A DNA stretch of 64,000 bases from Streptomyces sp. NBC_01439. GTDB taxonomy: Bacteria; Actinomycetota; Actinomycetes; Streptomycetales; Streptomycetaceae. The notes beneath the pieces are model-generated. The model made no database searches. It saw only the letters and a program-made list of their open reading frames with translations, and was not told the origin of the DNA. Below are positions 25,602 to 46,098 of the stretch, one piece after another (the stretch's first letter is position 1; each line of letters starts with the position of its first letter). The stretch covers positions 1,860,001-1,924,000 of the forward strand of contig NZ_CP109487.1 of assembly GCF_036227605.1 (NCBI RefSeq). The letters are read 5' to 3'. Both the position numbers and the translations under genes were made by a program.

Positions 25602-25974
25602 CCCGGGCCCCGCAGGTTCGCGGTTCCCGGTTCGCGGCCCGGCGGATCCGGCCTGCCGGAGGCCAGGTCCGCCGAGCGTCCGACGGATTGGCCGACCACT
25701 CGGCCGGGAGCCGGCACTCGGCCGGTTCCGGGTCGGCATACCCACACCCGTACCGACCGGACCAAATCCCACTGGAGCCTATCGCGCACGGCCCGATAGC
25801 AGACTTGGTGCCTCTTCAAACAATTCAAGGCGTACTTACCACTCATGATCGACCCGCCCTGCGCCGAGATGTGAGCAGTCTTCTTTCGTGTCAGCCTGGA
25901 AGTGACACGTTGCACCTTCACGGGGGTCTCTAAGCCGAGCAGATAAGCACTAGTTGCGACGCTGGAGGATCACG
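25602..25974. other. Intergenic region
   Basis: A 373-bp gap with no convincing coding frame. The left part holds short degenerate GGTTCGCGG and CGGCCGG repeats that may form a terminator for the zinc-ribbon gene. The right part (25780-25920) is distinctly AT-richer than its surroundings and may hold the promoter of the small membrane protein. Confidence 0.5.
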
Positions 25975-26274
25975 ATGATGGACAGCAGGGATCAGAAAGA
26001 GCTTCAAACCACGCGGGCCTGGGCCGGCGTCCTAGTAGTTCTTATCGGCGATCTCGGTATAGCCCTATCCGCAATTCTGATTGCATTGCATCTCAAGATG
26101 GGCACCGAGTCGGTCGCCATCCTCACCAGCGCATTTACCGCAATAGCTTCGATAACCACTGCGTATTTTGGCATTCGGGCCGCCGCCAACACCGCGCAGA
26201 GCGCCGTGGCCGTAGCCTCCCGCGACGGCCAGGGCAGCAACAAGACACCAGGCAATCCGCCACTCACGAAGTGA
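25975..26274 (+). CDS. Small two-helix membrane protein, unknown
   Basis: A 99-residue protein with GGAGGATCACG before ATG 25975. It has an N-terminal cytosolic segment and two hydrophobic helices (AGVLVVLIGDLGIALSAILIAL and VAILTSAFTAIASITTAYFGI). A short polar tail ends SRDGQGSNKTPGNPPLTK. Codon use is less GC-biased than the neighbours, which fits horizontally acquired DNA. Function is unknown; small helix-pair proteins of this kind occur near defence genes and on mobile islands. Confidence 0.55.
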   Translation: MMDSRDQKELQTTRAWAGVLVVLIGDLGIALSAILIALHLKMGTESVAILTSAFTAIASITTAYFGIRAAANTAQSAVAVASRDGQGSNKTPGNPPLTK

Positions 26275-27470
26275 ATACATAGCCTTGCACCTGCGAGCCG
26301 CCAGAAAGGTAAGACCGGGGCACGACGCGGGTTCCAGGCGGACACACGTCTGCACGCCCTGGGGGCGAGGTTGAATGGCAGCCTCGTCGGCGTCACATAC
26401 TTTCTCGTCCATCCCAACACGACGGGCCCAGACGTCTGCTTCCTGCAAGACGTTCACCGCACCAGAACTGCCCGGCCAAGGCGTTGCTCGTGCGCTGATC
26501 GTTGCGGTGTCTGAGTGGCCCCAGGCGCGCGCCTGCTGTCGTGCGTACGGGAAAACCCGGGAATCCAACAGTACGGCCCGGCATCCACACGACCAGCCAG
26601 CCGAGAATCCTCAACGTCGAGCACCTCCACGGGCCGGTAGCTGTCACGCCCGCAGGTACGAGTGCACCGCCTTCACCCCGTACAGGCCGATGGTGCGAGT
26701 CAGCCGCAGGGCGAGCGCGGTGAAGTACTTCTGGAACGCGTCGCATTTCCTGTACTAGGAGGTAGTGGTACCTCCCCCACGGCCCGTCGCCGACATGCTG
26801 CGAGGCGCAGGGTAACGCCACGCCCCTTGAGCACGTGGCCTTTCGCCTGCTCCCGCGTTTCGAACCGCCAGACCAGGCCGGCTTGCGTACCGTCTGCCCT
26901 CAGTACGCCCCACCTGCCGCGGGAGCGGGCGACAGTGGCTCCGCAGGAGTGGAAGTCGTCCGCCCAGTCAAAAGGGCCGGCAATCGCGGCAGCGCCGTCC
27001 CGGCCCGGGAAGGACAGACTGTGGCCGCTGCTGCGGACGGGTCCGCCCACGCCTCACGGCGCGATCCACCGGTGGCACGACTCCAGGATCCACGCGCGCA
27101 CGCGTCGATCAGGCACCGGCCGTGAACGGGCCGAGGACCCCGCACCGATGCGGTGTGCTCCGCAGCGGCGGCGACGGACTGGCGCCGTTCCGCACGGCCG
27201 ACGGGGAACCGTCCACCTCGACACCAACGGCGGGGAAGTCTGCCAGGCGCAGGTCGCGGCCGAGGACGGGGGGCATCAGCTCTGCTCCATAGCCGATTGC
27301 GTGAGCTCGCCGTCACTGGCTGGACCACGGCGCAACTGGCCGATTGCACCGTCCCTCCTCAGCTCCCGCGAAGTGCGACACGTCATCGGGATGTTGGCCG
27401 AATCCCGGCCGTTCGCAATGGATCGCCAGGATAATGAGCGAACCGACAGCTGAGCTCTGGGAGACCTTCA
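26275..27470. other. Gene-poor stretch
   Basis: About 1.2 kb on the left edge of the defence operon. All open frames here are short, lack ribosome sites or look like shadows, and none gives a recognisable domain. It reads as decayed coding DNA plus the promoter region of the operon that starts at 27471. I find no tRNA, insertion-sequence ends or repeats. Confidence 0.5.
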
Positions 27471-28901
27471 GTGGCAGTGGCAGGACAGAAGCGGCTGTTG
27501 CACGACGCGGTGGTGGTCGTCCCTGGCATCATGGGCAGTGAGCTGGTCGACACGGTGACCGGCAAGGTGCTCTGGGGTGCGCCCCACCTCTTCCGGTACA
27601 CGGCTCGGATGCAGCTCGACCGGTTCAGGTCGTTGGCCCTGACCGACGACGAACGGGCTGGGCGTATCGGGCGGATCAGGCCGGGGGGACTACTCTCCGC
27701 CCATGAGTGGTTCCCCAACCTTGGCGGGATCGAGCCGTACAGCAAGATCGTCCGTGACCTCCGAGCCCATGCTGTCCATCCCCATGCGGTGGCGACCTTC
27801 GCCTACGACTGGCGACTTTCGGTTCGTCACAATGGCCTCAAACTCGCCGAGTTCGCCAACCGTCACCTCACGGCATGGCGTGCTCATCCCAAGCACGACC
27901 AGCACATGATGAGTTCAGGAGAAGAGCGGCCCGGTCAACTCCTCTTCGTCGCACACTCGATGGGCGGGCTGCTGGTCCGCGAGGTGTTCGCGACGCCGGG
28001 GGCGGCAGACGAGGTGGCCGGTGTACTCACTGCGGGCACTCCCTTCGCGGGCTCCGTGAAGGCGGCCGTCGTCCTCAGCACCGGCCGGAACGGCGCTCCG
28101 TGGCTTCCCCGCGAGGAACTGCGCGGGATCGGGCGGACCATGCCGGGGCTGTACGACCTCTTGCCCGGCTACCGGTGCCTGTGGGAGGGCGGCGATACCA
28201 GGCGTCTGACGGCCGCAGACATAGTGGCGATCGGCGGCGACCCGGACTTGGCGGCCGACACGCTGTCCTGGCAGCAGCAACTGGCAGGCGTTCAGCTTCG
28301 TGAACACAGTCTGGTGGTCGGCGTCCGACAGCCCACGCCCGCCAGCATGCACATCGATTCCGGAGAAGCGGTCGCTTCCGAGGAACTGCCGAGACGGAAG
28401 GAAGGAATGCCCTTGCAGCATCCGGACGGCAGCCCAATGCACCAGGTCCTGGGCGGCGACGGCACCGTTTGCACCGCCGCCGCACAGCACGGCGGGGCCC
28501 GCGAGATCCCCGTTGCACGCAAGCACGGAACGCTGATGTCCGGCAATCTGGTGCGCACCATGGCCGTGTCCGCGCTCAGTCGCATCCGCGGGATGGAGGA
28601 GCTCGGCGACATCCTCGGCGACGGCAAGTTCGGCCTCGATGCGCCCGAGGCCATCGGGGTCGGCGAGGAGTTCGCCATCCGGCTCGCAGGCACTTCGAAC
28701 CCCGCCGCCGTGAACTGCACGGTGGAAGAGGTGACGGGATCGCGCGCCACTGTCCCCGCCGAGCTCCGCCGCGACCGCGAGAACGCGGACACCCTCTCCG
28801 CCACATGCATCCTGACCCAGCCCGGCCTCTACCGTATCGAAGTCTCTGGAGGCACCGAACCCGTCTCGCACTTCGTCATGGCCGCGGTGGCGGACGCCTG
28901 A
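27471..28901 (+). CDS. LCAT/PGAP1-like alpha/beta-hydrolase (lipase)
   Basis: A 476-residue serine hydrolase starting at GTG 27471 after GGGAGACC. The lecithin:cholesterol acyltransferase-like core shows the oxyanion segment VVVVPGIMGSEL and the nucleophile elbow FVAHSMGGLLVREVF. The Asp is probably in GGDGTV and the His in RKHGTLMSGN. The last ~110 residues form a separate beta-sandwich-like domain (GEEFAIRLAGTSNPAAVNCTVEEV to the C-terminus). No signal peptide is visible, so it acts in the cytosol, perhaps on the inner membrane. It is the first gene of a co-directional operon, 3 bp before the caspase gene. It is a candidate membrane-damaging effector; that role is inference. Confidence 0.8.
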   Translation: MAVAGQKRLLHDAVVVVPGIMGSELVDTVTGKVLWGAPHLFRYTARMQLDRFRSLALTDDERAGRIGRIRPGGLLSAHEWFPNLGGIEPYSKIVRDLRAHAVHPHAVATFAYDWRLSVRHNGLKLAEFANRHLTAWRAHPKHDQHMMSSGEERPGQLLFVAHSMGGLLVREVFATPGAADEVAGVLTAGTPFAGSVKAAVVLSTGRNGAPWLPREELRGIGRTMPGLYDLLPGYRCLWEGGDTRRLTAADIVAIGGDPDLAADTLSWQQQLAGVQLREHSLVVGVRQPTPASMHIDSGEAVASEELPRRKEGMPLQHPDGSPMHQVLGGDGTVCTAAAQHGGAREIPVARKHGTLMSGNLVRTMAVSALSRIRGMEELGDILGDGKFGLDAPEAIGVGEEFAIRLAGTSNPAAVNCTVEEVTGSRATVPAELRRDRENADTLSATCILTQPGLYRIEVSGGTEPVSHFVMAAVADA

Positions 28902-28904
28902 CCG

Positions 28905-31900
28905 ATGCCCGGTACACAACCTGGCGTCGACAGCGGCGACGCGTACACCGCCGCAGTCGGCACGACGCTCAGCAGCGGCTACGGTGAGGATCACGTGGCG
29001 GAGATGCCGATCTTCGCCATCCCCGTCGACACCTTCAACGGCGAACTAGTCAAGGATGTCGCCGCCACCGCAGAGGCCGCCCGCATCACAGATCTGCTGG
29101 GTCAACTGGGCGCGGTCGCCCGCCCGTGGGATCGGGCGGCGCCGACCGACCTGACCGCCGTCGACGACCGGCTGGCGGACTGGGCCGCAGGGGGCGGCGC
29201 CAGGACCTCGGCCTTGCTCTGGATCGGCCACGGCAGATCACTCGGGCAGCGGGCCGAACTACTCGTTCCGGCAAGGGCGGACAGCGAGCGGGACGCCGCG
29301 TTCGTCCCGCAGAGCCTGGCCCGGCACCTCGACGACGAGTATCTGTCCCGAGAGGAACGGCACTGGGCGCTGGTCATGGTGGAAGCCTGCGGCGCCGCCG
29401 GCTTCATGGATCAGGTGGAGGGCGAGCTCCGCTGGCTACAGCGGACCACGGGCAGGGATTTCGGCGCGCTGCTGATCGGGTCCGGGGAGAACCACGGCCC
29501 GGGGCACCTTGGGACCCTGTACACCGAACTCAATCGCGTCCTGGCCGGCTACACCGACCATGACGTCGATATCCGCCCGGCGGACCTTGCCGCCCGGCTC
29601 GACGGCAGCCAGGGGCTGATCGTCAAGCCGGTGGGTATCGGCCGCTGTCTGCCGCTGCGCCGACGCCCCGTACAGCCGCTGCCTGTCACAGCCACGGTCG
29701 AGGACTACCAGCGCCTCCACCGTCTGCTCGACGCATCGAACGACAGCGCGCTCGCTCACTTCCTGCGCAAGGGGGTGTGCAGCAGGTCAGCTGAGCTGTC
29801 CTGGGGATTCACCGGCCGCACCGCCGACCGGGAAGCCGTCGCCGCGTGGCTCGCCGACACCACCGCACCGGACATCCTCGCCGTCACCGGCGACCCCGGC
29901 GTCGGCAAGTCCGCGTTCCTCGGCAACCTGCTGATGCACGCGCACCCGGAGATCGGCAGCGAACTGGAAGCAGCGGGTTTCAGCGAAAGGCTCCAGCCAG
30001 GACTCAGCCTGCCGCCGTTCGACGCGGTCGTACACCTCACCGGAGCCGATCCCGACGAGGTGATCGACCGACTCGCCCATACGTTCGATATCCCGAACAT
30101 CCTCTCGCCCGAACTCTCCGCCGAGGGCCGCGTCGTCGCACTCGAAACCGCACTGCACGGCCGTGGAGCGGTGCACATCCTCGCCGACGCCCTCGACGAG
30201 GCGGACGAGCCGCTACTCGTCGCCGACCTGCTGCGCGAGCTGGCCCAACTGCCAGGCGTCCGGCTGATCGTCGGCACCCGCCCCGACGCAGTACCGTCGG
30301 CTCCGGGAGCGGCACCGGGGCGGACGCTGCTCGACGCGCTCGGCGAGGGGACCGGGCAGGCACGGGCGCATTGGTTGGCAGGAGACCCGGAAGCGGCACG
30401 TAGCTACGTCGATACGAGCCTGCGGGAGCTCGGGAGTCCGGAGACCGTAGCGTCCGTCGCAAACACCGTGGCAGAACGTGTTGCTGATGAATCCTGGCAG
30501 TTCCTTCAGACGGCACTTGTCGTCAGGGAGATCGAGCAACGGCCCGAGCTGCTCACCCCCAGCCTTCGCCCGGACCTCGACCGACTGCTGACCCAAAACG
30601 GGCGCGGCCTCCTGGATGGTGCGCTCGCGCGCATCACCGACGAGTTCCCCGCCGCAGAACACCTGCTCACTGCCCTCGCCCACGGCCGCGGCCGCGGCGT
30701 GCCGCGCGCGGACCAGGTGTGGGCCACCATCGCCCGGGCGTTCGCCCCGGACGGCACAGCCCCCGCCGACACCGACATTACCTATCTGCTCGACCGCGCC
30801 GCCGCCTATGTCCTGCTCGACGGTGATGAACGGCAGACAGTTCACAGGCTCGCCCACCGCACGTTCTCCGACGCGCTCAGGGCACAGTCCGGGGCCGACC
30901 ACAGGGTCGCCGTCGTTCGCGCCCTAGTCGAACTCATTGAGCACGGAGCCGAGTTGTCCGACAGGCCGGCCAACGACTACCTCGTGCGCCATCTCTCCGG
31001 CCACGCCGCAGCCGCAGGACCCGCAGGCTGGCGCGAGCTTGCGGCGTCCACGCGCGCCCTGGACGAGACGGCTCTACCCGATCTCGGCCGGGACGTCCTC
31101 GCGGCCCGCCTGACGCTTCCCGCGGGAGGATCCGCCGAGGGCCTCCCCCCAGAAGTGCTGGGCAGCCTGACCGCAGCACCGCTGATCCGTGCAGCCCGGC
31201 CCTCCGACCGACCGGGATTGCGTCAGCTGGGCGCTCTGCGTACCACCGGCCGGCTGCCCCAGGCAGGCCCCGGGGCGTCGTGGTGGGTGAGCTGGGGGCT
31301 GTTGCGTCGCCACGCCCCGCACCTGACGCTCGGCGGGCACACTCGGCCGGTCCGCGCCCTGGCTTCCTGGAACGAGGGCAGCGCCAGGTTTGTCAGCGGG
31401 GCGGAGGACGGCTCGGTCATGGTCTGGGATCCGTGGTTCAGCCACGCCCCGATCGCGGTGGTGCCAGGTCCGCCCCGCGCGGGGCTGACGGCACTGGCCG
31501 CCTTTCCCCCGACGGCCAGCGGCCACGGGCCGCGGGTGGCCGTCGCCCACGGCAATCGGACGGTTCGTGTGTGGGACGTATCCAGCGCGCCGAAGAAGGT
31601 CGCCGAGTTCGACACACCAACCTTCGTGACAGGCATGGCCGTCGCGCCGAGTGGGAGTGGGCGGCTGACGCTGGTCGGGCCGCAGCACTACGTCGCCGTG
31701 GTGGACCTCGACAAGCAGGTGCCGCGCCCACAGGTTGCCCCCACGACTTACGGGAAACCGCGCACCGTCATCGCGATCGACGCCCGGCGCGTTGTCACCA
31801 GCACCGACACCCGCCTCGTCCTCTGGGACGTCACAGGGGAGAAGCCGAAGCGGGTGGCCAAGGTAGCCACGACCAACCCACAGGCTGCGCTCACGCTGCT

Positions 31901-32657
31901 TCCCGGTGCCGGGCGGGCGACACGTCTGGCCAGCGCCGCCACAGAGAACGGCGCACGCCAAGTGACCTTCTGGACCGTCGACGCGGACGACCGCCTGGTT
32001 CACGACGATGCTCCCATGGACACCGGATCCGCCGACCTGGTCACCCTCGCCGGTATCGCAGGCCCTGGCGACACCGCGCGGCTGCTGACCGCGACCAGGG
32101 ACGGCGTCTTCCGGCTGTGGGACCTCTCCACCCGCAGCAGCATCACCGAGATCCGCGCCGACGGTCCTGTCGGCGCGGCTCGGCTCACCACCGTCGCCGG
32201 ACCACCCGGCCTCGCAGAGGCCACCGCGCTCCCGGTCACGGCCAGCTCGCTGGATACCCGAATCCGGATCTGGGACCCGACGCCCCAGGAGGCGGCCGGC
32301 CTTCAGGTCGCAACTTCGGGCGCGCAACGCGTCACGCGCATGCTCGCCACCGACGGCGAAGAACTGATCACGGTCCACTGGGACGACGGCACGGAACGAA
32401 CCTTCGCCGCCGTTGACGGGACCGAGCGCCGGGCCGAGGGGGCCAGGTCCGCACCGCTGCCCCCGTGGGACATCGGCCTGCCCGACAACCTGGGAGCACC
32501 CGTACGAGACCGGGCGACGCTCGAGCGCGGGCGGACCGCCGTAGCGGTCGAGGACGGAGTCGTGGTGCTGGAGACGGCACCGACCGAGTTGCAGGCGTGG
32601 AAGGAGTCAGTTCCGGATGATGGCATTCGACGGCGCGAGCCCCCAGGAGATCATTGA
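28905..32657 (+). CDS. Caspase-like / NACHT-type ATPase / WD40 protein
   Basis: A 1250-residue multidomain protein. Residues about 30-235 are a caspase-family peptidase (C14/CHAT-like) with His109 in LLWIGHGRS and Cys162 in VMVEACGAAGF, normal dyad spacing. Residues about 300-560 are a STAND/NACHT P-loop ATPase, with Walker A GDPGVGKS (329-336) and Walker B HILADALDEAD (about 425-433). A helical region follows. From about 803 to 1170 WD40-type repeats appear (SGAEDGSVMVWDP, TVRVWDV, TRDGVFRLWDL, TRIRIWDP). This sensor-switch-protease layout is that of bacterial conflict-system proteins: WD40 senses, the ATPase oligomerises, and the protease kills or activates. The 3' end overlaps the kinase-helicase gene by 41 bp. 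Confidence 0.85.
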   Translation: MPGTQPGVDSGDAYTAAVGTTLSSGYGEDHVAEMPIFAIPVDTFNGELVKDVAATAEAARITDLLGQLGAVARPWDRAAPTDLTAVDDRLADWAAGGGARTSALLWIGHGRSLGQRAELLVPARADSERDAAFVPQSLARHLDDEYLSREERHWALVMVEACGAAGFMDQVEGELRWLQRTTGRDFGALLIGSGENHGPGHLGTLYTELNRVLAGYTDHDVDIRPADLAARLDGSQGLIVKPVGIGRCLPLRRRPVQPLPVTATVEDYQRLHRLLDASNDSALAHFLRKGVCSRSAELSWGFTGRTADREAVAAWLADTTAPDILAVTGDPGVGKSAFLGNLLMHAHPEIGSELEAAGFSERLQPGLSLPPFDAVVHLTGADPDEVIDRLAHTFDIPNILSPELSAEGRVVALETALHGRGAVHILADALDEADEPLLVADLLRELAQLPGVRLIVGTRPDAVPSAPGAAPGRTLLDALGEGTGQARAHWLAGDPEAARSYVDTSLRELGSPETVASVANTVAERVADESWQFLQTALVVREIEQRPELLTPSLRPDLDRLLTQNGRGLLDGALARITDEFPAAEHLLTALAHGRGRGVPRADQVWATIARAFAPDGTAPADTDITYLLDRAAAYVLLDGDERQTVHRLAHRTFSDALRAQSGADHRVAVVRALVELIEHGAELSDRPANDYLVRHLSGHAAAAGPAGWRELAASTRALDETALPDLGRDVLAARLTLPAGGSAEGLPPEVLGSLTAAPLIRAARPSDRPGLRQLGALRTTGRLPQAGPGASWWVSWGLLRRHAPHLTLGGHTRPVRALASWNEGSARFVSGAEDGSVMVWDPWFSHAPIAVVPGPPRAGLTALAAFPPTASGHGPRVAVAHGNRTVRVWDVSSAPKKVAEFDTPTFVTGMAVAPSGSGRLTLVGPQHYVAVVDLDKQVPRPQVAPTTYGKPRTVIAIDARRVVTSTDTRLVLWDVTGEKPKRVAKVATTNPQAALTLLPGAGRATRLASAATENGARQVTFWTVDADDRLVHDDAPMDTGSADLVTLAGIAGPGDTARLLTATRDGVFRLWDLSTRSSITEIRADGPVGAARLTTVAGPPGLAEATALPVTASSLDTRIRIWDPTPQEAAGLQVATSGAQRVTRMLATDGEELITVHWDDGTERTFAAVDGTERRAEGARSAPLPPWDIGLPDNLGAPVRDRATLERGRTAVAVEDGVVVLETAPTELQAWKESVPDDGIRRREPPGDH

Positions 32658-35600
32658 CAAGCTGTTCGTGGGGAGCGACGCGCCCTACGGCCCCTACGAG
32701 TGCGTCAAGAGGCCCGAACCGCTCGGCGACCGCATGCTATGGGCCACGCTCCAGCGCCCCGGGGACGAGTCCGACCTCTTCGACGCCTTCCTGTTCGGCA
32801 AGATCTTCGGCGTGGCGGGCGAGCTCTGGGAGCACGAGGTCCGCAACCTGCTGCGCCTCCAAGCAATCGGGCATCCCGCGCTGCCGGAGATCGTCGACGG
32901 AGGACTCGACGCCGGACTCGGAGTCGCCTTCACCATGACGAGGCAGATCGGCACCCGGCTGAGCGAAGCCTGGGACCGCGATGACTTCCCGCAATGGGTC
33001 AGGGACAACCGCAGCCTCGCCTTCGAGCAGTACAGTCTCCTCGTCGACGCACTCAGTCAGTTGCACGGAGCGCGGATCCTGCACCGGAACCTGACTCCTG
33101 GCGCGATCACCATCCGCCAGAACGGCGATGGCCGGTACGCTTTCGCCCTCGGGCGGTTCGAGATGAGCGCGCTGCTCGGCAACCTGGTCAGGACCCTCTA
33201 CGCGCCGTCCAGGAACGACGAGTATCGCACTCTGATGAACACGCTCTACCTGGAGCCGCCCGCTGGCATCGAACGTGCCCATCACCTTGCCTACCTCGCG
33301 CCCGAGACCTGGCCTTCGCTTTTCGACGAGGCGCCCGAGCCCCGGCGCGACTGGAGCAGCACGGACGTCTTCGGCCTCGGCGTTTTCGGCTGGGAACTGT
33401 TCTGTGGGCCGCTCGCCGAGACGCTTCCGGAGCCGTACACGGCGATCTCCACCGCCGGTCCGGGTGAGTTGCCCGGTGCCCTGAAGACCCTGCACACGAA
33501 GATGCGCCAGCATCTGCAGGCCCAGGCCGGCCGGGGCATCCCCCGTGAACTGGTTCGAGTTCTGGACGGGATGCTCGACCCGGAGCCCGGCGCGAGGCGC
33601 TCCTCGTTCGAGGCAGCCCGCTCATTGGAAGAACACTGGGGGGCGATCTGTGATCTATGGGAGGACATCGACCCCGAACGGCAGCCCCACCTGGTCGCGT
33701 TCATGCCGGCCGAGTCAGTCGACACCGTGTACCGACAGCGCCAGTGGATCGCCCACAGCCCCGAGGAACCCACCGGACGCGACGAACTCCGGGACTTTCT
33801 GAAGTGGGAGTTGAGACAAGCCGAATTGGTGTGGTCTCCGGGCGGCGCGAAGGGCTTCGTCTCCGGGCGTGAGGAGCGCCTGCAGCAGGCCGAGTGGGCG
33901 CTGATCGGTGAACAGGCCGTCTGGTTCTGCGCGTTCCTCTACGACGAGACGTTCTCCGGGCAGATCCGGACCAGGCACACCCGCACGCTGGTCATCAAGT
34001 ACCTGGTCGACCGGCGCTTCGCCCAGGAGATCCTCGCGGCCCGGCCGCGGCGCCGGATCGGCAGGATAGACCTCGTCGCGTACCGTGCCCGCCAGGATCT
34101 CAGCGCTCACTTCAAGGACCGCCCTGACTGGACGCCGCTCACCGATGCCGTGAAGGCCGGCCGAGCTGCCCACGACCCCGGGAACCAGCAGTTGCTGAGG
34201 TCCATGGAGTTCATGCTCGACTATCAGGGCGTCATTCAACGGGCCCGGCAGTACCCGTACACCAGGGTCGAGGAGGGCAACAGCGGCAGCACTCACATCC
34301 TGCAGATCGATCGTGACCGCGACCCCGAGTACCGGCACAGCAGCCCTCTGCTGACCGCCTTTGCAGCCGATCCCCGGCGCCGTCCGGAACTCGGCGACTT
34401 CGCGGCCTCCCTCCTTGCCGAACAGGCGGAGAAGGACGGCGAAGTCGCGCTCGACGTGGTGGCCGGGGAGGGCACCCCGTACTTCGGCCGCGACCGGATG
34501 CAGGTCACGCTGGTCGGCCGCAAAGACGCGGACACCGTGGAGGTGCGTACCTCTGACGCAAAGCAGCTTCCGCCCGTCGGCTGGCTGCGGCCCGCCCAGG
34601 ACCGGGGCACAGCCATCCAGCTCAGCAGGATGGCGCGCGGCGTGGAGGCCCTGCGGCAGAAGCAGGGGCTGATGCGTGCCCTGCACTCGCCCTCTTCGAT
34701 CACCATCAACCGGGGTCAGTGGCACCCGAACGATTCCGACGAGAGCCCGCGATTGACCGGCAACGCCATGAAGATCATCGGAAGGATGCTGGAGACCCAC
34801 CCCTTCTTTGCCCTTCAGGGCCCGCCCGGCACCGGCAAGACCACCATCGCGACCCGCGCCGTCCAGCGCTACCTGTGGGCCGAACCCGGGGCACGGGTCC
34901 TGGTGAGCGCGCAGTCGAACGGCGCGCTCGACCACCTCGGGCTGCGGCTTGTCGAACAGTTGCAGTCCGAACTCGAGGAACGGCGAGTACTACTGCTGCG
35001 GGAAATCCCGGACTCGCGGGGATTGGACAGCCTGCCGCCGGTCCTTCGCCCATACACGCTGACGCAACTCTCCGAGAACCTCAGGGACGACATCCACCGG
35101 GCAGCCCAGCGGATGTCGGCCCCCGGCCCGGACGGGGCAAGCATCGCCGGGGCCGAACTCAGGCTCGCGCGGGAGTGGGCAGACCTCGTCGAGAACAACC
35201 TCCTGGAGGTCTCCGACAGAATCAAGGCCGGTGCCAACATCGTCCTTGCGACCTGCTCGATCGCCGGCACGCTCAGCGAAGAGATCCGGGACGCCTCCGA
35301 CATCTTCGACTGGGTGCTCATCGAAGAGGCGGCCAAGGCCTGGCCCACCGAGATCATCATGCCACTGGTACTCGGCGTGCGGTGGACACTCATCGGCGAC
35401 CACCGCCAGCTCGGCCCGCACCGGGCCACCGACGTGCGCAACTTCCTCGAGACGCTACGGGAGAGCGGCAACGTGCAGGTCGCCCGCCACGTCGAGATGG
35501 CCGAGAGCTACCTTGCCCACCTCGAGCTGTTCGGGACGCTCTTCAAGAAGGACGAGCAGCAGCACCGACCCGGCTCGCCCCTGGACAAGCTCGAGCAACA

Positions 35601-36261
35601 GTTCCGTATGCACCCCGACATCGCCGAACCAGTGGCGCGGGCCTTCTACCAGCAACGCGGCGAGGACGGCGAGGTGAGGTACGACCCGACGGGCCTGCCC
35701 GAGAGTTTCCTCATCACCCCGCCCACAGGACTCGCCAAGCGCCACGAGCTGACCACACCGCCCTACCTCGCGGGCAGCCCCCTGGTCTGGCTCGACACCT
35801 CGCACCGCCGCGACTGTGCCGACAAGCCGTACTGGCGCAACGACGGCGAGGCGAAGCTGGTCACCGAGCTCGTGGACCAGCTCGCCGGCACTGCCCACAG
35901 CGACTCCCTGGACCTCGCCGTGCTCACCCCGTACAGCCAACAGGTACGCGCTCTGAAGCAGTTCGGAAACTTGCGGAATCACGTGCACACGGTTCACTCG
36001 TTCCAGGGGCAGGAGGCGGACCTGGTGATCGTCTCGCTCGTCCGCTCGACCGTGCAGGGCCCGGACACCCGCCACAACGTCGGGCACGTGGCGCAGGCCG
36101 AACTCGTCAACGTCCTGTTGTCCCGGGCTCGCAAGCTACTCGTCGTGGTCGGTGACCTGCCCCACTTCGAGGAGCACGGCGGCGAGGCCTGGAAACACGT
36201 CACCACGGTGTTCCGCCGCATCGGAAAGATCAAGGACGCCGTGCAGGAGCCGCTCGTATGA
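32617..36261 (+). CDS. mkoA: Pseudokinase fused to SF1 helicase (Mokosh MkoA-like)
   Basis: A 1214-residue protein. Residues about 20-345 are a Ser/Thr-kinase fold, but the catalytic loop reads HRNLTPGAI (H156-R157-N158) instead of HRDLKPxN and DFG is replaced by LGRF. APE (LAPETWP) and DVFGLGVFGWEL remain. It is probably a pseudokinase. Residues about 700-1190 are an Upf1/Dna2-like SF1 helicase (COG1112 type), with Walker A GPPGTGKT (735-742), a DE-box degenerate to IEEAAKAWP, IGDHRQLGP, QFRMHPDIAEP and HSFQGQEADLVIVS. Kinase-helicase plus an adjacent PLD protein is the architecture reported for type I Mokosh anti-phage systems. Its start overlaps the caspase gene and its stop overlaps the PLD gene. 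Confidence 0.82.
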   Translation: MMAFDGASPQEIIDKLFVGSDAPYGPYECVKRPEPLGDRMLWATLQRPGDESDLFDAFLFGKIFGVAGELWEHEVRNLLRLQAIGHPALPEIVDGGLDAGLGVAFTMTRQIGTRLSEAWDRDDFPQWVRDNRSLAFEQYSLLVDALSQLHGARILHRNLTPGAITIRQNGDGRYAFALGRFEMSALLGNLVRTLYAPSRNDEYRTLMNTLYLEPPAGIERAHHLAYLAPETWPSLFDEAPEPRRDWSSTDVFGLGVFGWELFCGPLAETLPEPYTAISTAGPGELPGALKTLHTKMRQHLQAQAGRGIPRELVRVLDGMLDPEPGARRSSFEAARSLEEHWGAICDLWEDIDPERQPHLVAFMPAESVDTVYRQRQWIAHSPEEPTGRDELRDFLKWELRQAELVWSPGGAKGFVSGREERLQQAEWALIGEQAVWFCAFLYDETFSGQIRTRHTRTLVIKYLVDRRFAQEILAARPRRRIGRIDLVAYRARQDLSAHFKDRPDWTPLTDAVKAGRAAHDPGNQQLLRSMEFMLDYQGVIQRARQYPYTRVEEGNSGSTHILQIDRDRDPEYRHSSPLLTAFAADPRRRPELGDFAASLLAEQAEKDGEVALDVVAGEGTPYFGRDRMQVTLVGRKDADTVEVRTSDAKQLPPVGWLRPAQDRGTAIQLSRMARGVEALRQKQGLMRALHSPSSITINRGQWHPNDSDESPRLTGNAMKIIGRMLETHPFFALQGPPGTGKTTIATRAVQRYLWAEPGARVLVSAQSNGALDHLGLRLVEQLQSELEERRVLLLREIPDSRGLDSLPPVLRPYTLTQLSENLRDDIHRAAQRMSAPGPDGASIAGAELRLAREWADLVENNLLEVSDRIKAGANIVLATCSIAGTLSEEIRDASDIFDWVLIEEAAKAWPTEIIMPLVLGVRWTLIGDHRQLGPHRATDVRNFLETLRESGNVQVARHVEMAESYLAHLELFGTLFKKDEQQHRPGSPLDKLEQQFRMHPDIAEPVARAFYQQRGEDGEVRYDPTGLPESFLITPPTGLAKRHELTTPPYLAGSPLVWLDTSHRRDCADKPYWRNDGEAKLVTELVDQLAGTAHSDSLDLAVLTPYSQQVRALKQFGNLRNHVHTVHSFQGQEADLVIVSLVRSTVQGPDTRHNVGHVAQAELVNVLLSRARKLLVVVGDLPHFEEHGGEAWKHVTTVFRRIGKIKDAVQEPLV

Positions 36262-39200
36262 ACGTCACCATCGCCGTTCCCGTCCGCGCCGTCACCCTCA
36301 CCCTGGTGCTCGGTCCCGAGCAGGGCGCGACCACCCTGGAGGGACTGGCCGCCCGGGCTGTCGCCGCCGGCCGTCGGACGGTCGCCGACCTTGCGGACCT
36401 CTTCACCCTGCCCCGCCGGGTGATGCTCGACGTCGTGCACGGCCTGTGGACCAAGGGCTACGTCTCGGTGGACTTCTCCGAAGGCCGACTCGAACTCACC
36501 GACACCGCCAGGGACCTGATCGCCCAGGGCTCCGCCCTCGCGAGCGCGGGGGTCCAGCAGGAGCAGCGGAAATTCGTCTACGAGCCGATCACCGGCAGCG
36601 TGTTCACCTACGCCTCGTCCCTGTCGTCCCCGCCCGCCGGAGCCATCGAGGCCCCGGTCCGCCAGGGCATCGGCACCGACGACCTGCCGCGCGGCGAACT
36701 GCTGCGCGCCGTGAGCTCGGCGATCCGGTATGACCGGCGCAACCGTGGCCTCCGCCAAAACGTCCTCGACGTCTCCTTCGGCAACCCGCTACTCAGCGCC
36801 GACGGCTCGATGCGCTGGCTGTCCGTGCGTGGTGCCGTGCACAGCGACTTCGACACAGGACGTCTCTCCGTCGAGATCTCCGACGACTCCGAATGGAACC
36901 AGCAGGCCAGGGACCGGTTCCGGAACGAGATCGCGTTCCTCTCCGAACAGGATCCGCCCCACCCCTTCGTCGCCAGGCTCCGGGACGTGGCTGAGCCGAG
37001 TCGTCCCGCGCGCACCGACCTCGGCTACCTCGGTAGCCGACTCACCCGGCTCGCCGACGCCGCAGCGGCCACGCCTGCGACCAAGCTGAAGCTGGCTCAC
37101 GAGGAACTCCAGACCGCCGCGCGCAGACTTGGCGAACGCATCGACTACCTGGCCGGCTTCCGGGCTGCAGCCGAACCGGTCGCGGTCGGCGAGGGAGTCC
37201 GTTGGACCAGGTCCGACCTCATCCGATCAGCCCGCCGCCAGATCGTCATCGCCGCCCCCACCATCGAGTACGGGCCGCTCAAGGAGATCCTGCCAGACCT
37301 CGAGGACGCGTTTGAACGGGACGTCACCGTCGTGCTCCTGTGGGGCACCTTGGTGAACACCTCCCTCCCCAACAAGGTGGCGAACGCGCTTCACGACCTC
37401 AAGGCTCGGTACGGCGACCGGATGATCTTCGCCGACCGCGGGGCCCGCATCCGTGCCAGCCTGGTGATCCAGGACGACGAACAAGCCTGCATCGGCTCCC
37501 GCAGCCTGCTGACCGGCGACCCCGGCGGCTGCGTGCTCGTCCGACGCGCCGAGGGCGCCGCCGAACCTGCACGGTGCGTGGTGGACCTGCTCATCTGGGC
37601 ACGTCGGTACTTCCCGCACTGGCATGCCGGCCGTCGGATCGCGTTCCGACCGGAGGACCTCGGCCGGAACACCGGCATCGAGCCGGCCCCCGTGCCAGCG
37701 CCGGTAGCCCGCAACCTGCCCGAGCTCCCAGAGGAAGCCACTCGGGACAGTGCAGTCGCCCGGATCCGTTGGGCTGCGGACTGGCGGGACACCGCCATGC
37801 GGCTGACCGGTGCGGTCGAGGGCCTCCACACCGGAGTTCCGGTGGTCCTGATGGCCGAGGACGCCGAGTACCAGTCTCTGCTCCACCACGCGCTCCACTC
37901 CGAGGTCCGCCGAATTGCCATCACGGACGACGACGCGGATCACGACGCCTGCGGCGATGCCCTCGGACGCCACCTGCAGGAACAGCTTGAGGACGGCGCA
38001 ACCGTTCACCTCTTCCACCCGGTGCCGGCCGGCCCCACCGCCTCCGAGGCCTTCGAACAACTCACTGCCACCGTCCGCCGCGCAAGGACACTGCGCCACG
38101 CAAGGGCGACCACACGGTCGGTGGTCTGCGACCAGGTGGTCCTCGTCGGCAGTTGCTCACCGCTCGTCCGCCGATCCCACCGAACAGACGCCGACATGCT
38201 CAGCGGACACGTCGGCCTGCAGATCCTCAGCGCGGACTTCGCCGCCCGCCACACCCATGAACTCGGCATCGCCAACTGGCACAGCGCACCGGCGCAGGAT
38301 GCGCCAACAGCACCGGCCGAAGCGGCGGAGGACCGCGCCTGGACCGACCTGGAGGAACTCCTTCGAGCCCCGGAGTCATGGGGCGAGTTGCGCAGCCAGG
38401 CTGTCAGTACGCTCCTCTCCCGATCCCAGGAGGAACCGCAATGGCAGCGCTGGGCGAACTGGCTGATCGAGGATGCCTGGCGCCGCCACGCCTTCGTAGA
38501 AGCCCACTTGCTCGCGCCGCTGACAGCAGGCACGGGCCCGGTGTCACCGGAACTAAGCACCGTCGCCGTGCCGGTCGAATACGGCCCGACCGGCGATTCG
38601 CTCTACTACGCGGCGCTCGGCCTCCCCGCTCGACGCGAGGAGCGGGCCGTGGGCCTGACCGGAGCCATCGCCGAACTCCTGCTGTGGGGCGGCCCGGCAG
38701 GCGCGGATGTCTTCGCGGAGCTGTCAGCGGATGTCACTGAGGTTCCCCTGCCCACCGTCTGGCGCGAACTCGGCCAAAGAGCCGTCGCCTACCACGAGGC
38801 CACCGGACGGGCACTGCCGCTGCGACAGCTGGCCTCGGAAGCCGGACGCACCCGGCGCGCCGAGCAGCTCGCCCAGGCTCGGCAGGTACTGACGCAGCGC
38901 GTCGAGGATTTCCGCCCCGCCCGGCAGGCCTTCGCCTTCCGTGGCGGCTACTACTTGCACGATCACCTGTTCGCCGCAGGCGGGCTGATGTCCCGCATCC
39001 AGGAAGTTGCCAGCGCCCCGGACCCAGGCACCGCCGACACGTACGCGGAACTCAAGTCGGACCTACCGGCTGGCCCGGACATCCTCCTGTACCTCGACAA
39101 GATCGTCGCCGATGGCCACCATCCCTCGATCCAGTGGACCAACTACAACCTGATGCGCTACGCGGCTCGTGCCGCCGACATCGTCGCCAACGCCCGCGAG

Positions 39201-39407
39201 GTCATCGCACTCATGGAGGAACTCGCCACAACCTCGAACGGCAGCACCGGCGCCGACGGCCACTATCACGAGGTCACCCGGCTCATCCGCGATCGCTGGG
39301 ACGAGCTGTTCCAAGAGGCGGAGGCCTTGGGTCCGTTGCACGCACAGCCCTCCCTCGCACTGTTGCACCGCCTTCGCCCCCTGAACCACGCCGGTGGAGC
39401 CCAATGA
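36258..39407 (+). CDS. mkoB: Winged-helix / phospholipase D-like protein (Mokosh MkoB-like)
   Basis: A 1049-residue protein coupled to the helicase gene by an ATGA overlap. Residues about 20-90 are a winged helix (RRTVADLADLFTLPRRVMLDVVHGLWTKGYVSV). Two PLD-like units follow, near 310-430 and 560-650. The expected HxK(x)4D motifs are degenerate. The first reads RASLVIQDDEQACIGSRSLL (R399 in place of His, Ser in place of Lys). The second reads TRSVVCDQVVLVGSCSP. The GS strand signatures are kept but the catalytic His and Lys are not seen. The rest is helical. It may therefore be a non-catalytic or altered PLD scaffold that works with the helicase. Confidence 0.75.
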   Translation: MNVTIAVPVRAVTLTLVLGPEQGATTLEGLAARAVAAGRRTVADLADLFTLPRRVMLDVVHGLWTKGYVSVDFSEGRLELTDTARDLIAQGSALASAGVQQEQRKFVYEPITGSVFTYASSLSSPPAGAIEAPVRQGIGTDDLPRGELLRAVSSAIRYDRRNRGLRQNVLDVSFGNPLLSADGSMRWLSVRGAVHSDFDTGRLSVEISDDSEWNQQARDRFRNEIAFLSEQDPPHPFVARLRDVAEPSRPARTDLGYLGSRLTRLADAAAATPATKLKLAHEELQTAARRLGERIDYLAGFRAAAEPVAVGEGVRWTRSDLIRSARRQIVIAAPTIEYGPLKEILPDLEDAFERDVTVVLLWGTLVNTSLPNKVANALHDLKARYGDRMIFADRGARIRASLVIQDDEQACIGSRSLLTGDPGGCVLVRRAEGAAEPARCVVDLLIWARRYFPHWHAGRRIAFRPEDLGRNTGIEPAPVPAPVARNLPELPEEATRDSAVARIRWAADWRDTAMRLTGAVEGLHTGVPVVLMAEDAEYQSLLHHALHSEVRRIAITDDDADHDACGDALGRHLQEQLEDGATVHLFHPVPAGPTASEAFEQLTATVRRARTLRHARATTRSVVCDQVVLVGSCSPLVRRSHRTDADMLSGHVGLQILSADFAARHTHELGIANWHSAPAQDAPTAPAEAAEDRAWTDLEELLRAPESWGELRSQAVSTLLSRSQEEPQWQRWANWLIEDAWRRHAFVEAHLLAPLTAGTGPVSPELSTVAVPVEYGPTGDSLYYAALGLPARREERAVGLTGAIAELLLWGGPAGADVFAELSADVTEVPLPTVWRELGQRAVAYHEATGRALPLRQLASEAGRTRRAEQLAQARQVLTQRVEDFRPARQAFAFRGGYYLHDHLFAAGGLMSRIQEVASAPDPGTADTYAELKSDLPAGPDILLYLDKIVADGHHPSIQWTNYNLMRYAARAADIVANAREVIALMEELATTSNGSTGADGHYHEVTRLIRDRWDELFQEAEALGPLHAQPSLALLHRLRPLNHAGGAQ

Positions 39408-39485
39408 GAGAGCGGAGCCGGCCCATCGGATTCATCAAGCGGAACGCATCGCACGAAGCGGCACCAGATCGACACAGGAGACAAC

Positions 39486-41912
39486 ATGAGCATGCCGCTG
39501 CGTGATCTGCTCGCCGACTGGCCCGACCGATTCCGTCACCAGGCCGTCCTCGTCGCACTCGCGGCAGACAAGGATCCCGACCCCCGGCAGTTGGCCATGG
39601 CTCTGCTCGACACCTACCACGGCCCGACCACCCCGACCGAGGTGTACCACCGCCTACTCGAGGCCGGCGAGTTCGAGCTCGCCGACGGTATGCTGACGGA
39701 CTGCCGTGAGCTCCGCGACGGCGCCGCCAACTTCCGACAGGCACTCGGCAGCGCCCGCGCGGCGGCCGACGAGGCGGTGCGGTTGAAGGTCGCCGAACTG
39801 CGGCGACGGGCCGAGAACGCGGACATCGCGCCGCCCGCCGGACTGGACACAGACGATCTCAGGAAACGCACACGACTCCGCACCGCTCCCGTCGCGACTC
39901 TGCTGGCGCAGCACGAGAAGATCCTGACCCAGGACATCGCGACCGCCGTCGACGCACTGCGTGCGAGCACCGTTGCCGACGAGCGGGGCCCGGCACGGAC
40001 CGCCTACCTGAACGACCTCCTCGCTGCCGGCCAGCTGCGGGTTGCCCGCGCCGTACTCGAACGGGAACCACCTGGTGCGCTGCTGCCGGAGGCCGTTCCG
40101 CAACTCCAGCCCTGGCGTGCAGCCTTCGACCCCGACGTGGTCTGTCAGGTCCTGGTGGATCCGAGCGCTCCGCGGGTGGCGGAGTACCAGCGGTGGGAGC
40201 CCGCCGACCCAGTTGCCCGGGCGCTGCTCGACGCCTACGACGACCTGATGTCCGAGGAGAGCTGCACCCGACAGGCAGTGGTCGCGTTCACTTCTGCGCT
40301 GGGCCGCTTCCTCGGAACGGGCGACCAGCTCGCGCCGGTCACCGCCCGCCCGGACGGCGCCGGATTCCTGACCTCCCTCGACGGACTCTTCGCCGAGGAC
40401 CCACTGCGCCACCTCCACGACACCGACCGTGTCGACTTGTTTGTCTCAACGCCCAACAGCCCGGGCCTGCCGAGCGACCTCGCCGGGCTGCAGCAGTGCA
40501 TCGCAGTTGGGCGCGGCCTCACACCCTCGGGTTACCTTGGCGGAGAACCATGCGCCGTGCTGTCCACCCGCGACCTTCTGCGGCTGCTTCCCCTCACCAC
40601 ACACCGGCCCACCGCGATGCTCCGCCTGCTGGCCAGGCAGTGGCCGCTATCCGTCCTCGCCGGGCGGAGCCCCAAGGATCTCAACCGGCTACTGGGCGAC
40701 GGCGAGACCCGGTGGCAGCGCCTCCGCTGGATCGTTGACCTCGCGGGTCTCGGCGACGCCGTGGTCGTCGACGAAATGGAGTCGGCAACCGGCTTCGACA
40801 TCGGCCTGCTGCACACCATGCTTCACCGGGCCGCGCCCGATCAGCCCCGGACCACCCTGCTTCCGGGCGGCCGCTTCGCCTCGTGGCAGGGCGACACCGA
40901 CCTGGTGCGCGCCATGGAGGAGCACCTGGAGGGCCGATGCCAGGATGAGGCGACCCTGGTCACCCTGTGGGCGACACTGTACGTGGCGGAACCGGACGGC
41001 CGCGTTCGCATGGACGACGTCCGAGCGGTGGCCGCCATGGTGGCCACCGGGAAGGACACCGCAGCCGCAGTCGCCGCCGGAGCAGCCGCACTTGCCGCCG
41101 ATGGGTTCCTCCGCCCCGACGACGAGGCCGACCACTGGCTGCTGCCCCGGGCGAAGGTACTCGGTATGCTCGCCCAGGACGCCGAGGAACGACTGACCCG
41201 CGCCGTCGCACGCCTTCCGGCCGCGACGGCCACCGAACCCACGGACGCTCAGTCGGCCCTGCTCGCGCAGCTCACCGGCTGGCGCAGCAACCGGCACCGC
41301 CTCGCCCCCGACTTCGCCGCCTACCAGTCCCTGACTGGACTAGTCTCCACAGACCGCGACAAACTACTCTCCACCGCCAGCCGGGTGCTAGCCCAGACCG
41401 AGGCCGGAGCCCGGCTCGCGCCTGACGGAAGCTCACGACTGGACCACGTGCTCAGAGAACTGGCGGCCGAACTGGGCGCGGTCCACCCGCAGGTGGAGGT
41501 CGACATCCGCTGCCCGGCCAACGCCTACTCCGCCCTCTCGGCGGACGCCCTGCGAGTGGTCTTCTACGAAATCCTGGAGAACGCGGCCGAATCCGTGTCC
41601 GCCATCGGCGGCGGCACCGTACAGGTCATCGTCCAGATCGACGATCCCGACCTCGTCGTCGACGTCCTCGACAGCGGGGAGGGACTCGTAGGACAGTTCC
41701 AGGACCGCCCCACCCTGGTGTTCCGGAAGGGGCGCACGACGAAGGGCCCCCACCGGGGAGACGGGTTGCACCAGGTGCGCAGCATCCTGGCCGACGTGGC
41801 CGAGGGCCCCGCCGAAATCACCCTCGGACCCGCGGGAGACGCACACCCGACCCTGCGGGGAGTGCACGTACGCCTCGACCTTCCCCAACCCGCCCGCAGG
41901 GTCGACCGGTGA
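39486..41912 (+). CDS. GHKL (histidine-kinase-like) ATPase domain protein
   Basis: An 808-residue cytosolic protein with CAGGAGAC before ATG 39486. The C-terminal 140 residues are a GHKL/HATPase_c domain: N-box EILENAAESV (about 695-704), G1 DVLDSGEGL, and G2 HRGDGLHQVRSI. No receiver or histidine phosphotransfer domain is clear, though SRLDHVLRELAAEL precedes the N-box. The first ~650 residues are mostly helical without a family I recognise. It is the last gene of the island operon, 78 bp after the PLD gene. GHKL ATPases of this kind occur as MORC/Hsp90-like or regulatory ATPases in defence systems. A role in signalling or DNA compaction is a guess. Confidence 0.72.
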   Translation: MSMPLRDLLADWPDRFRHQAVLVALAADKDPDPRQLAMALLDTYHGPTTPTEVYHRLLEAGEFELADGMLTDCRELRDGAANFRQALGSARAAADEAVRLKVAELRRRAENADIAPPAGLDTDDLRKRTRLRTAPVATLLAQHEKILTQDIATAVDALRASTVADERGPARTAYLNDLLAAGQLRVARAVLEREPPGALLPEAVPQLQPWRAAFDPDVVCQVLVDPSAPRVAEYQRWEPADPVARALLDAYDDLMSEESCTRQAVVAFTSALGRFLGTGDQLAPVTARPDGAGFLTSLDGLFAEDPLRHLHDTDRVDLFVSTPNSPGLPSDLAGLQQCIAVGRGLTPSGYLGGEPCAVLSTRDLLRLLPLTTHRPTAMLRLLARQWPLSVLAGRSPKDLNRLLGDGETRWQRLRWIVDLAGLGDAVVVDEMESATGFDIGLLHTMLHRAAPDQPRTTLLPGGRFASWQGDTDLVRAMEEHLEGRCQDEATLVTLWATLYVAEPDGRVRMDDVRAVAAMVATGKDTAAAVAAGAAALAADGFLRPDDEADHWLLPRAKVLGMLAQDAEERLTRAVARLPAATATEPTDAQSALLAQLTGWRSNRHRLAPDFAAYQSLTGLVSTDRDKLLSTASRVLAQTEAGARLAPDGSSRLDHVLRELAAELGAVHPQVEVDIRCPANAYSALSADALRVVFYEILENAAESVSAIGGGTVQVIVQIDDPDLVVDVLDSGEGLVGQFQDRPTLVFRKGRTTKGPHRGDGLHQVRSILADVAEGPAEITLGPAGDAHPTLRGVHVRLDLPQPARRVDR

Positions 41913-43470: not shown

Positions 43471-43998
43471 GGGCTGTCCCGTAACTGATCTTTGAGTCGA
43501 CGCTGGTGTGGTTGGTCGTGGTGGTGCGGGTCGCCGCCTATCCGGCGAGGGCGAGGTTGTGCAGGCGGGCGATGCCGAGCATGGCGTGGTGAACGCCGTC
43601 GCCTTTGAGACGGCAGTCACGGAGGATCTTCCAGGTCTTCATGCGGGCGAAGACGTGCTCGACGCGGGCACGGACCTGCTTGTGGGACTTGTTGTGCGCC
43701 TGCTTCCAGTCGGGCAGGTCTTCGCCCTTCCGGCGGCGGTGGGGCATGACGAGTCCGGTGCCGGGATAGCCGCCGTCGGCGATCGTGAGTGTTTCGCCGA
43801 CGGCGGCTTTGACGCCGGACTCTTCCCAGGCCTTGCAGTCGTTGCGGTTTCCCGCGAGCGGCCGGCCGACCACGACGACCAGGCGCGTGTCGGCGTCGAT
43901 GACGATCTGGTGGTTCGTGGAGTACCGGTAGTTCTTCGACTGCGCCGAGATGGCGTGGTCGCGGGTGGGCACCAGGGTGCCGTCTACGATCAGCACAG
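43471..43998 (-). mobile_element. Truncated IS5-family element
   Basis: The left end begins GGGCTGTCCCGTAA, a typical terminal repeat of actinomycete IS5/IS427-type elements. The other end is absent: the element is interrupted at 43998 by the IS3 element, and no IS5 sequence follows on its far side. It also marks the break in the membrane-protein gene to its left. Confidence 0.75.
43538..43996 (-). pseudogene. IS5-family transposase, C-terminal part
   Basis: The surviving 150 residues carry DDE transposase features. VDGTLVPTRD holds the first Asp, IADGGYPGTGLVMPHRRRKG lies in the second catalytic strand, and the end reads NKSHKQVRARVEHVFARMKTWKIL, with the catalytic Glu in RVEHVFARMK. The N-terminal ~120 residues are missing because the IS3 element sits directly upstream. 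Not functional. Confidence 0.8.
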
Positions 43999-44025
43999 TG
44001 AACCGTTCCGGGTTCGGTAGAGAGC

Positions 44026-44991: not shown

Positions 44992-45278
44992 AAACTCGCC
45001 GCGGCCTTGAGGATCTCGTTCGCCCGCTTCAGCTCGGCGTTCTCCTTCTTCAGCCGCTTCAGCTCGGCCGACTCCTCCGTCGTCGTCCCGGGCCGGGTCC
45101 CGGCGTCGATCTCGTCCTGACGGACCCACTTGCGCAGCGTCTCGGTCGTGCCGATGCCGAGCTTCGCGGCGACCGCTTTCATCGCGGCCCACTCGGTGTC
45201 GTAGTCGGGCCGCACCTCGGCGACCATCCGCACCGCACGACGGCGCAGCTCAAGCGGGTACTGGGAAGGACGTGCCAT
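44952..45278 (-). CDS. IS3-family transposase OrfA
   Basis: A 108-residue protein with an N-terminal helix-turn-helix (HTH_Tnp_1: YPLELRRRAVRMVAEVRPDYDTEWAAMKAVAAKLGIGTTETLRKWVRQ). A leucine-zipper-like segment follows (ESAELKRLKKENAELKRANEILKAAASFF). It overlaps orfB, and the TTTCTTC codons near its end are the likely frameshift point that makes the OrfAB fusion transposase. Confidence 0.92.
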   Translation of the reverse strand: MARPSQYPLELRRRAVRMVAEVRPDYDTEWAAMKAVAAKLGIGTTETLRKWVRQDEIDAGTRPGTTTEESAELKRLKKENAELKRANEILKAAASFFAAELDRPHTRS

Positions 45279-45414
45279 GACTCGATCCTCTCAAACGATC
45301 GAGTCCCTACCGAACCCGGAACGGTTCAGCCCTTAGTAACGCGCCGCAAGAAGATGGTTCGGGGTGGTTGCGCTGACTGAAAGATCACAGTCAGCCCGTA
45401 GCGCCCCCGACTGA

Positions 45415-46055: not shown

Positions 46056-46098
46056 GTCGGGACGACAGGATTTGAACCTGCGACCCCTTGACCCCCAG
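46056..46098 (-). other. tRNA-Pro 3' fragment, probable attachment site
   Basis: On the minus strand this is the anticodon-loop-to-3'-end half of a tRNA: CTGGGGGTCAAG, then GGGTCGCAGGTTCAAATCCTG and GTCGTCCCGAC. It includes the T-arm GGTTCAAATCC. The GGG in the loop suggests tRNA-Pro(GGG). The 5' half is absent, so it is not a functional tRNA. Next to an integrase remnant, it looks like the att site of an integrative element that duplicated the tRNA end. From memory, pSAM2-type elements also use tRNA-Pro. Confidence 0.7.

Follow-up and report, generated by a model that had tools for sequence, protein, structure and literature searches.

A five-gene Streptomyces operon combining a Mokosh-like core with a caspase-STAND protein, a lipase and a GHKL protein

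The 64,000-nucleotide stretch of Streptomyces sp. NBC_01439 analysed here (contig NZ_CP109487.1, positions 1,860,001 to 1,924,000; hereafter the window), part of a genome of 9.58 Mb in a single contig, carries five adjacent genes. In order, they encode an LCAT-like lipase, a caspase-STAND-WD40 protein, the two proteins MkoA and MkoB of a Mokosh-type-I-like core, and a GHKL (histidine-kinase-type) protein. The operon recurs in other genera, its genes are inherited together, catalytic residues are lost in some of its proteins and kept in others, and MkoB and GHKL are fused in some relatives. The reading we favour, with somewhat less than even confidence, is that the locus is one co-inherited system with a Mokosh-type-I-like ancestor, whose phospholipase D (PLD) nuclease and histidine-receiver relay would have been replaced by a caspase-STAND-lipase death module. 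An earlier note, made from the sequence of the window, had presented the locus as an undescribed combination. We found the five genes together nowhere in one open-access library of 5.39 million papers, which lacks most subscription papers, and no paper there brings 'Mokosh', 'caspase' and 'lipase' together or mentions 'PLuB'; within this scope the claim stands.

Operon structure, distribution and common descent

The five open reading frames (ORFs) lie on the forward strand and span 27471-41912, the coordinates of the earlier note, and a self-written codon-usage gene caller selects the identical five genes. Their spacing is +3, -41, -4 and +78 bp, and among 20 loci 64 of the 79 junctions between different genes overlap or are at most 5 bp apart, so the closely spaced, co-directional genes that had been proposed are a conserved operon. 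Pfam recognised LCAT, WD40/AAA, SF1 helicase and HATPase_c domains among the five proteins. Scanning with PADLOC gave 898 bits for the MkoA model and 447 bits for the MkoB model, and the best match of the lipase, caspase and GHKL proteins to PADLOC had an E-value of only 0.013. No RNA feature reached an Rfam gathering score. Close relatives of the caspase and GHKL proteins of the window are found in Streptomyces and Kitasatospora.

The GTDB genome collection was scanned with an MkoA alignment and the best 80 of 97 loci were analysed, using hidden Markov models built from 4-9 streptomycete proteins, with a gene scored as present from 28 bits and gene starts in relatives picked by script. All five genes, in one order and on one strand, were present at 20 of the 80 MkoA loci, in Streptomyces, Kitasatospora, Nocardia, Actinomadura and Mycolicibacterium; at L076 there are four of the five, the contig ending within MkoB. 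Another 29 loci, 28 of them from Actinobacteria, carry MkoA, MkoB and GHKL without lipase and caspase (hereafter three-gene loci). MkoA and MkoB only were scored at 23 loci and MkoA only at 7, in Planctomycetota, myxobacteria and mainly Alphaproteobacteria, along with some cut actinobacterial contigs; some loci scored without GHKL sit on short contigs.

Within the family, 9 of 150 genomes, the host's own included, contain a near full-length MkoA, and in all nine a GHKL-type gene lies directly 3' of MkoB. Four of the nine (the host, G101, G061 and G079) have the complete five-gene order. An order-level search with the lipase found the five-gene locus in at least 4 of 293 genomes (the host, G101, G388 and G197), and gene order and strand are also kept in G079 and G388. 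The occurrence of MkoA is sporadic, since a phylum-wide sample yielded a near full-length copy in 1 of 296 genomes, the host's own, at E <= 1e-60, a threshold that would miss diverged cores. The arrangement put forward in the earlier note, a Mokosh-like core with caspase-STAND sensor, lipase and GHKL ATPase, is thus a recurrent one: the five genes co-occur in many genomes, both core proteins match defence-system models, and the outer genes, far from being always absent beside MkoA and MkoB, accompany them in a clear sub-clade.

A quick MkoA tree of 61 rows places the window and 17 five-gene rows in one clade (SH-aLRT 100), whose sister group of 29 rows comprises 28 three-gene loci and L087, which is cut inside MkoB. 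Long branches flagged in this tree are mostly outgroup rows and L095, L100 and L108; it omits L062, L069, L076, L088 and L102 (split or cut) and all loci above L124. In a lipase tree, all 21 five-gene lipases fall together with a support of 94, separate from 31 lipases found in other contexts. Across 17 fully alignable loci, any two of the five proteins agree closely in their pairwise distances (r 0.92-0.98), an agreement of which host phylogeny alone could yield part, and none of 999 permutations reached the observed r for any of the 10 gene pairs. None of the five genes seems to be in decay, as dN/dS was 0.12-0.49 for every one of them in five pairs of loci. Judged from the trees and distances, the lipase-caspase pair seems to have been joined to the Mokosh-like core once and inherited with it since.

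Domains and catalytic residues

The lipase (27471-28901, 476 aa) is LCAT/PGAP1-like, matching PF02450 at 1.5e-14 and 54.5 bits against a cut-off of 21. Its catalytic residues are Ser163 in AHSMGG (27951-27968), Asp330 in GDGTV (28455-28469) and His352 (28521-28538), beyond which the C-terminal stretch is more variable. As expected of an LCAT-type lipase, the Ser, Asp and His are found in 21 of 21 aligned five-gene rows; row L088 was dropped from the motif counts because of a frameshift or contig end. No signal peptide was evident by eye, so the lipase is probably cytosolic.

The second gene (28905-32657) encodes a single protein of 1250 aa, in which a caspase-like domain (about residues 33-255, 29001-29669), a STAND (NACHT-like) NTPase (about residues 300-640, 29802-30824) and a WD40 beta-propeller region (about residues 801-1175, 31305-32429) follow one another; some of its relatives are annotated as 'NACHT and WD repeat domain-containing protein'. 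The WD40 repeats match PF00400 at 1.2e-13 and the NTPase matches AAA_16 at 1.3e-4, among weak Pfam AAA/NPHP3_N/NACHT matches. The caspase dyad, His109 in WIGHG (29220-29234) and Cys162 in EACGAAG (29382-29402), is retained in 18 of 18 aligned five-gene rows, as is the STAND Walker A motif (GDPGVGKSA, 29889-29915, followed by the acidic LADALDEAD, 30180-30206); L067, L076, L088 and L102 were left out for a frameshift or contig end. Pfam PF00656 has no match in the window caspase and does not appear in the partly cut precomputed domain lists of 36 relatives, so the assignment rests on a fold test, the predicted model having a caspase fold of the clan CD, C14-like type. The WD40 region is the most divergent of 14 segments of the five proteins, with a mean pairwise identity of 0.28 versus 0.35-0.50 for the remaining segments (17 loci).

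MkoA (32617-36261, 1214 aa) matches PADLOC model PDLC03920 at 3.1e-270 over residues 64-1210, which covers 48-1098 of the 1112 model positions. In its kinase-like domain (about residues 60-345), HRN (33079-33099) and GRFEMS (33148-33168) replace HRD and DFG, and neither motif occurs in 77 of 77 readable rows (81 in total; L069, L088, L102 and L128 were left out at these motifs). What the earlier note had called a kinase is therefore a pseudokinase. The UPF1-like SF1 helicase (about residues 700-1200), with Walker A at 34819-34845 and EEAAK at 35311-35337, retains its motifs, matches IGHMBP2 and UPF1 structures by profile and is the most conserved segment measured.

The MkoB gene (36258-39407, 1049 aa) overlaps MkoA by 4 bp. 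Residues 2-689 match PADLOC model PDLC03922 over 5-594 of its 610 positions; an N-terminal region precedes two PLD lobes, and a C-terminal extension (about residues 690-1049) reaches past the model. No match to PDB sequences was found for MkoB up to E 1. Degenerate sequences, RASLVIQD (37452-37475) and TTRSVVCD (38109-38132), stand in place of HxKx4D, and the HKD motifs are gone from both lobes, in the window as well as in 22 of 22 five-gene loci. They are intact in 19 of 20 loci that have MkoA and a readable MkoB and in which no GHKL was found, the sole exception being L069, a contig fragment (L087 and nine loci without an aligned MkoB were left out). Because both motifs are lost throughout the five-gene loci, PLD probably does not kill as a nuclease there.

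The GHKL protein (39486-41912, 808 aa; HATPase_c) ends in a catalytic ATP-binding domain at about residues 645-803, with an N box at 41571-41594 and DSGEGL at 41670-41687. It resembles histidine kinases in having an HATPase_c domain with N and G1 boxes and, in the predicted model, a histidine-kinase fold; the first 560 residues are mostly helical, and the matches listed in a structure search all lie over the kinase domain, so that none is informative on residues 1-560. The H-box His, a candidate phospho-acceptor, is present in 0 of 21 five-gene rows and in all 25 complete three-gene rows. The count excludes L100 and L110, which have a gap at the H box, and also L106 and L108 (incomplete) and L093 (duplicated), the last three of which nonetheless read His. 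A replacement of this His by Trp was considered and is not borne out: residues at the H-box column (about residue 597) vary, and a conserved Trp (Trp599 in GWRSNRHR, 41277-41300) stands two residues further along in 21 of 21 rows. MkoB and GHKL are read as a single ORF in four loci (L091:13498-19296, L105:13510-19416, L100:13312-18783 and L106:13516-18369). On this comparative sequence evidence, GHKL is a histidine-kinase relative and the standard third subunit of actinobacterial Mokosh-like loci, and not the outer addition that it had been taken for.

In 26 of the 29 three-gene loci a convergent gene, here gene X, encodes a receiver domain (for example L097:19404-20588, minus strand), with canonical residues in all 23 rows that could be aligned (23 of the 26 loci). 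Its profile matched in 0 of 20 complete five-gene loci and nowhere in the 64-kb window, the rest of the genomes being unsearched for it. The N-terminal part has weak HTH_20 and BTAD matches (L101) and from its consensus looks like a SARP/OmpR-type DNA-binding stretch. In three-gene loci, gene X probably encodes the partner of the histidine kinase GHKL; with its canonical receiver residues and DNA-binding-like N-terminal part, it is not a likely exchangeable killing effector. Another gene adjoining three-gene loci, gene Y, encodes a TIR-like domain with a conserved Glu and an S1 RNA-binding region (L097:20726-22126 and L101:20101-21378, both plus strand, and ten more loci; residues were counted in 9 of the 12). 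PLD is intact or half-intact in 10 of the 12 gene Y loci, the exceptions being L078 and L083. L076 was uncounted for gene X and GHKL.

The lipase outside Mokosh-like loci, and the genomic surroundings

Relatives of the lipase occur in 53 of 293 genomes of the order. The 34 lipase regions that were read comprise 2 five-gene regions, the only ones with MkoA, 8 tandems of lipase then caspase, 15 divergent regions, 1 reversed region in which a STAND/WD40 gene precedes the lipase, and 8 without such a neighbour by profile. Caspase His and Cys motifs are found in 8 of 8 tandems. The divergent regions have a STAND/WD40 relative; a profile match reaches the caspase part in 7 of them, and a simple pattern finds the His motif only in L198 and L200 of those 7. 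The idea that every stand-alone lipase pairs with a caspase is accordingly not borne out. The lipase and its STAND/WD40 partner, a caspase in some cases, are a module of their own that was joined to the Mokosh-like core, since they are found in regions without MkoA. In such regions (L172-L202) a Streptomyces lipase has caspase-STAND-WD40 or STAND-WD40 genes as neighbours, arranged in tandem, divergently or otherwise, and in L189, L190, L194 and L195 the lipase lies at the end of an ORF of 1400-1500 aa.

Upstream of the operon, window positions 18620-23529 hold two genes, with MFS plus ABC and with ABC transporter domains; in the 1.9 kb 5' of the lipase (25602-27470) our own caller finds no gene, and this part falls within a stretch whose GC content is somewhat lower. 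To the right, a DDE transposase gene (43538-43996) and an IS3-type integrase gene (44026-45192) lie on the minus strand, the latter flanked by a 25-bp inverted repeat of 96% identity (43999-44023 and 45304-45328). A 34-base tRNA-Pro 3' end at 46064-46097 (genome G000:C1:1906064) recurs in full tRNA-Pro (ggg) genes at genome positions 1959141 and 1988360, and because of this match an integrated element probably starts 4 kb right of the operon. The region looks like two tandem integrated elements, of which this would be the first.

Interpretation and comparison with known systems

What follows on the trigger, on how and in which order signals pass, on the lipase as target of the caspase and on a purpose in defence is inferred from the sequences. 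The MkoA helicase, on an MkoB scaffold, would recognise abnormal nucleic acid such as that of a phage, and the GHKL subunit would act as an ATP-driven conformational switch without phosphotransfer. This switch could license oligomerisation of the WD40/STAND protein in an apoptosome-like manner, bringing caspase domains together; the caspase might then activate the cytosolic lipase through cleavage or contact, and the lipase would attack the membrane, so that the infected compartment dies before phage release. A two-signal design with WD40 as second sensor is possible, and such a role fits because the WD40 segment is the most divergent. Taken as a whole chain, from nucleic-acid sensing by the helicase through an apoptosome-like caspase to the lipase, in a Mokosh lineage that swapped nuclease and relay and whose GHKL now serves as an Hsp90/MORC-like ATP clamp between the two halves, the scheme is conceivable and remains doubtful.

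Several findings weigh against a single system in which one output replaced another. Both PLD lobes are degenerate in 15 of 29 three-gene loci, which have no lipase-caspase pair, so the loss is not due to the pair alone, and the idea that PLD died solely because the pair arrived is ruled out; the association of PLD loss with the pair has a Fisher p of 7e-5, a value that ignores common descent. The catalytic losses and the gain of the module map to one branch, and their coincidence therefore counts as one event and not many. The alignment of five-gene rows has gaps at the H box and may be off there by some positions. Direct coupling is not forced, since in the 8 tandems the lipase and the caspase pair up where Mokosh genes are absent. 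Among 93 proteins flanking 18 of the 21 lipase+caspase loci (L064, L074 and L088 were omitted), 12 PADLOC models matched one protein each, in a survey without control, and four of the names are plausible for defence (JetD, mad1, mad3 and IetA); the case for a defence island is weak.

The tandems without MkoA also favour a different view, in which two independent systems share a transcript and its regulation only: a Mokosh-like system on the one hand and, on the other, a lipase-caspase-STAND pair that senses through its own WD40 part. The 15 regions with a divergent STAND/WD40 relative point the same way, and a WD40 region more variable than any other segment is what such a sensor would show. 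However, every five-gene locus found has one order and one orientation, the five genes are co-inherited within a single clade, and the Mokosh-like core, in which PLD motifs, H-box His and receiver gene are absent, is thereby without an evident effector of its own; we consider two stacked systems rather unlikely. The helicase itself might instead be the effector, unwinding or blocking phage transcripts, with lipase and caspase as a back-up death when a phage inhibits the core. Its conserved motifs would suit this role, and three-gene loci with a dead PLD must act in some other way, but there is no sign of a separate trigger and the tight gene overlaps suggest a fixed stoichiometry, and the proposal seems to us improbable. 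A last view holds that the operon is not antiviral at all and is a developmental or kin-recognition switch for programmed death in filamentous actinobacteria. Its hosts belong mainly to Streptomyces and other filamentous genera, and defence neighbours are few. Caspase-type conflict systems are also reported to be enriched in multicellular bacteria (PMC7159879). The sporadic distribution of MkoA, in the phylum as in the family, and a core common to PADLOC's Mokosh models argue against such a switch, to which we give a slim chance.

If one co-inherited system is indeed what the locus encodes, bacteria would have a helicase sensor linked to membrane killing driven by a caspase, close to the logic of the metazoan inflammasome and apoptosome, and a dead kinase, a dead PLD and a dead histidine kinase would have been kept under purifying selection as signalling parts. 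The relatives form a natural test of modular immunity, with one sensor core, differing outputs and matching loss of catalytic residues; the outputs are a PLD nuclease, part of the described Mokosh type I system, a histidine-receiver relay, partly with the TIR-S1 gene, and caspase plus lipase. The actinobacterial core also has a third subunit that PADLOC models left unscored in the three GHKL proteins scanned.

In the APAF-1 apoptosome an NTPase and WD40 repeats control a caspase; the likeness to the second protein of the operon is an analogy only, and the caspase here is fused, not recruited. The apoptosome is described in PMC13174449. Bacterial metacaspase-NACHT-WD40 proteins (PMC3501461) have the same domain order, whereas here a lipase gene and, in one clade, a Mokosh-like core are attached, and Pfam C14 misses this caspase. 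The two-gene EACC1-caspase system of multicellular bacteria (PMC7159879) likewise includes a caspase, with a gene for a single-transmembrane EACC1 protein 5' of it; in the operon a lipase gene has that position, in an analysis that ran no EACC1 profile.

In the sister three-gene loci, which are presumed to serve defence, a histidine kinase occurs together with a receiver-domain protein, as in Detocs. Five-gene loci differ in lacking the phospho-His and the receiver gene and in having a helicase/PLD pair at their core. NCBIfam and PADLOC scans gave no match to a model named after Detocs, and these libraries may hold none. Detocs appears in PMC11249213 as a defensive two-component system of three genes with a PNP effector.

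The closest comparison is with Mokosh, which was named by Millman et al. 2022 (cited in PMC10952713) and which PMC11291487 links to degradation of viral transcripts. As in Mokosh type I, the same two core proteins follow each other, MkoA then MkoB. The catalytically dead kinase-like domain is common to all readable MkoA rows and not specific to five-gene loci; the differences lie in the lost PLD motifs, the long C-terminal extension of MkoB, the GHKL gene in third place and the upstream lipase and caspase. The described Mokosh core named in the earlier note is thus matched in its adjacent genes and in both models, but not in its PLD motifs, and because the HKD motifs of PLD are missing we file the locus, on present sequence criteria, as Mokosh-derived and not as a Mokosh system.

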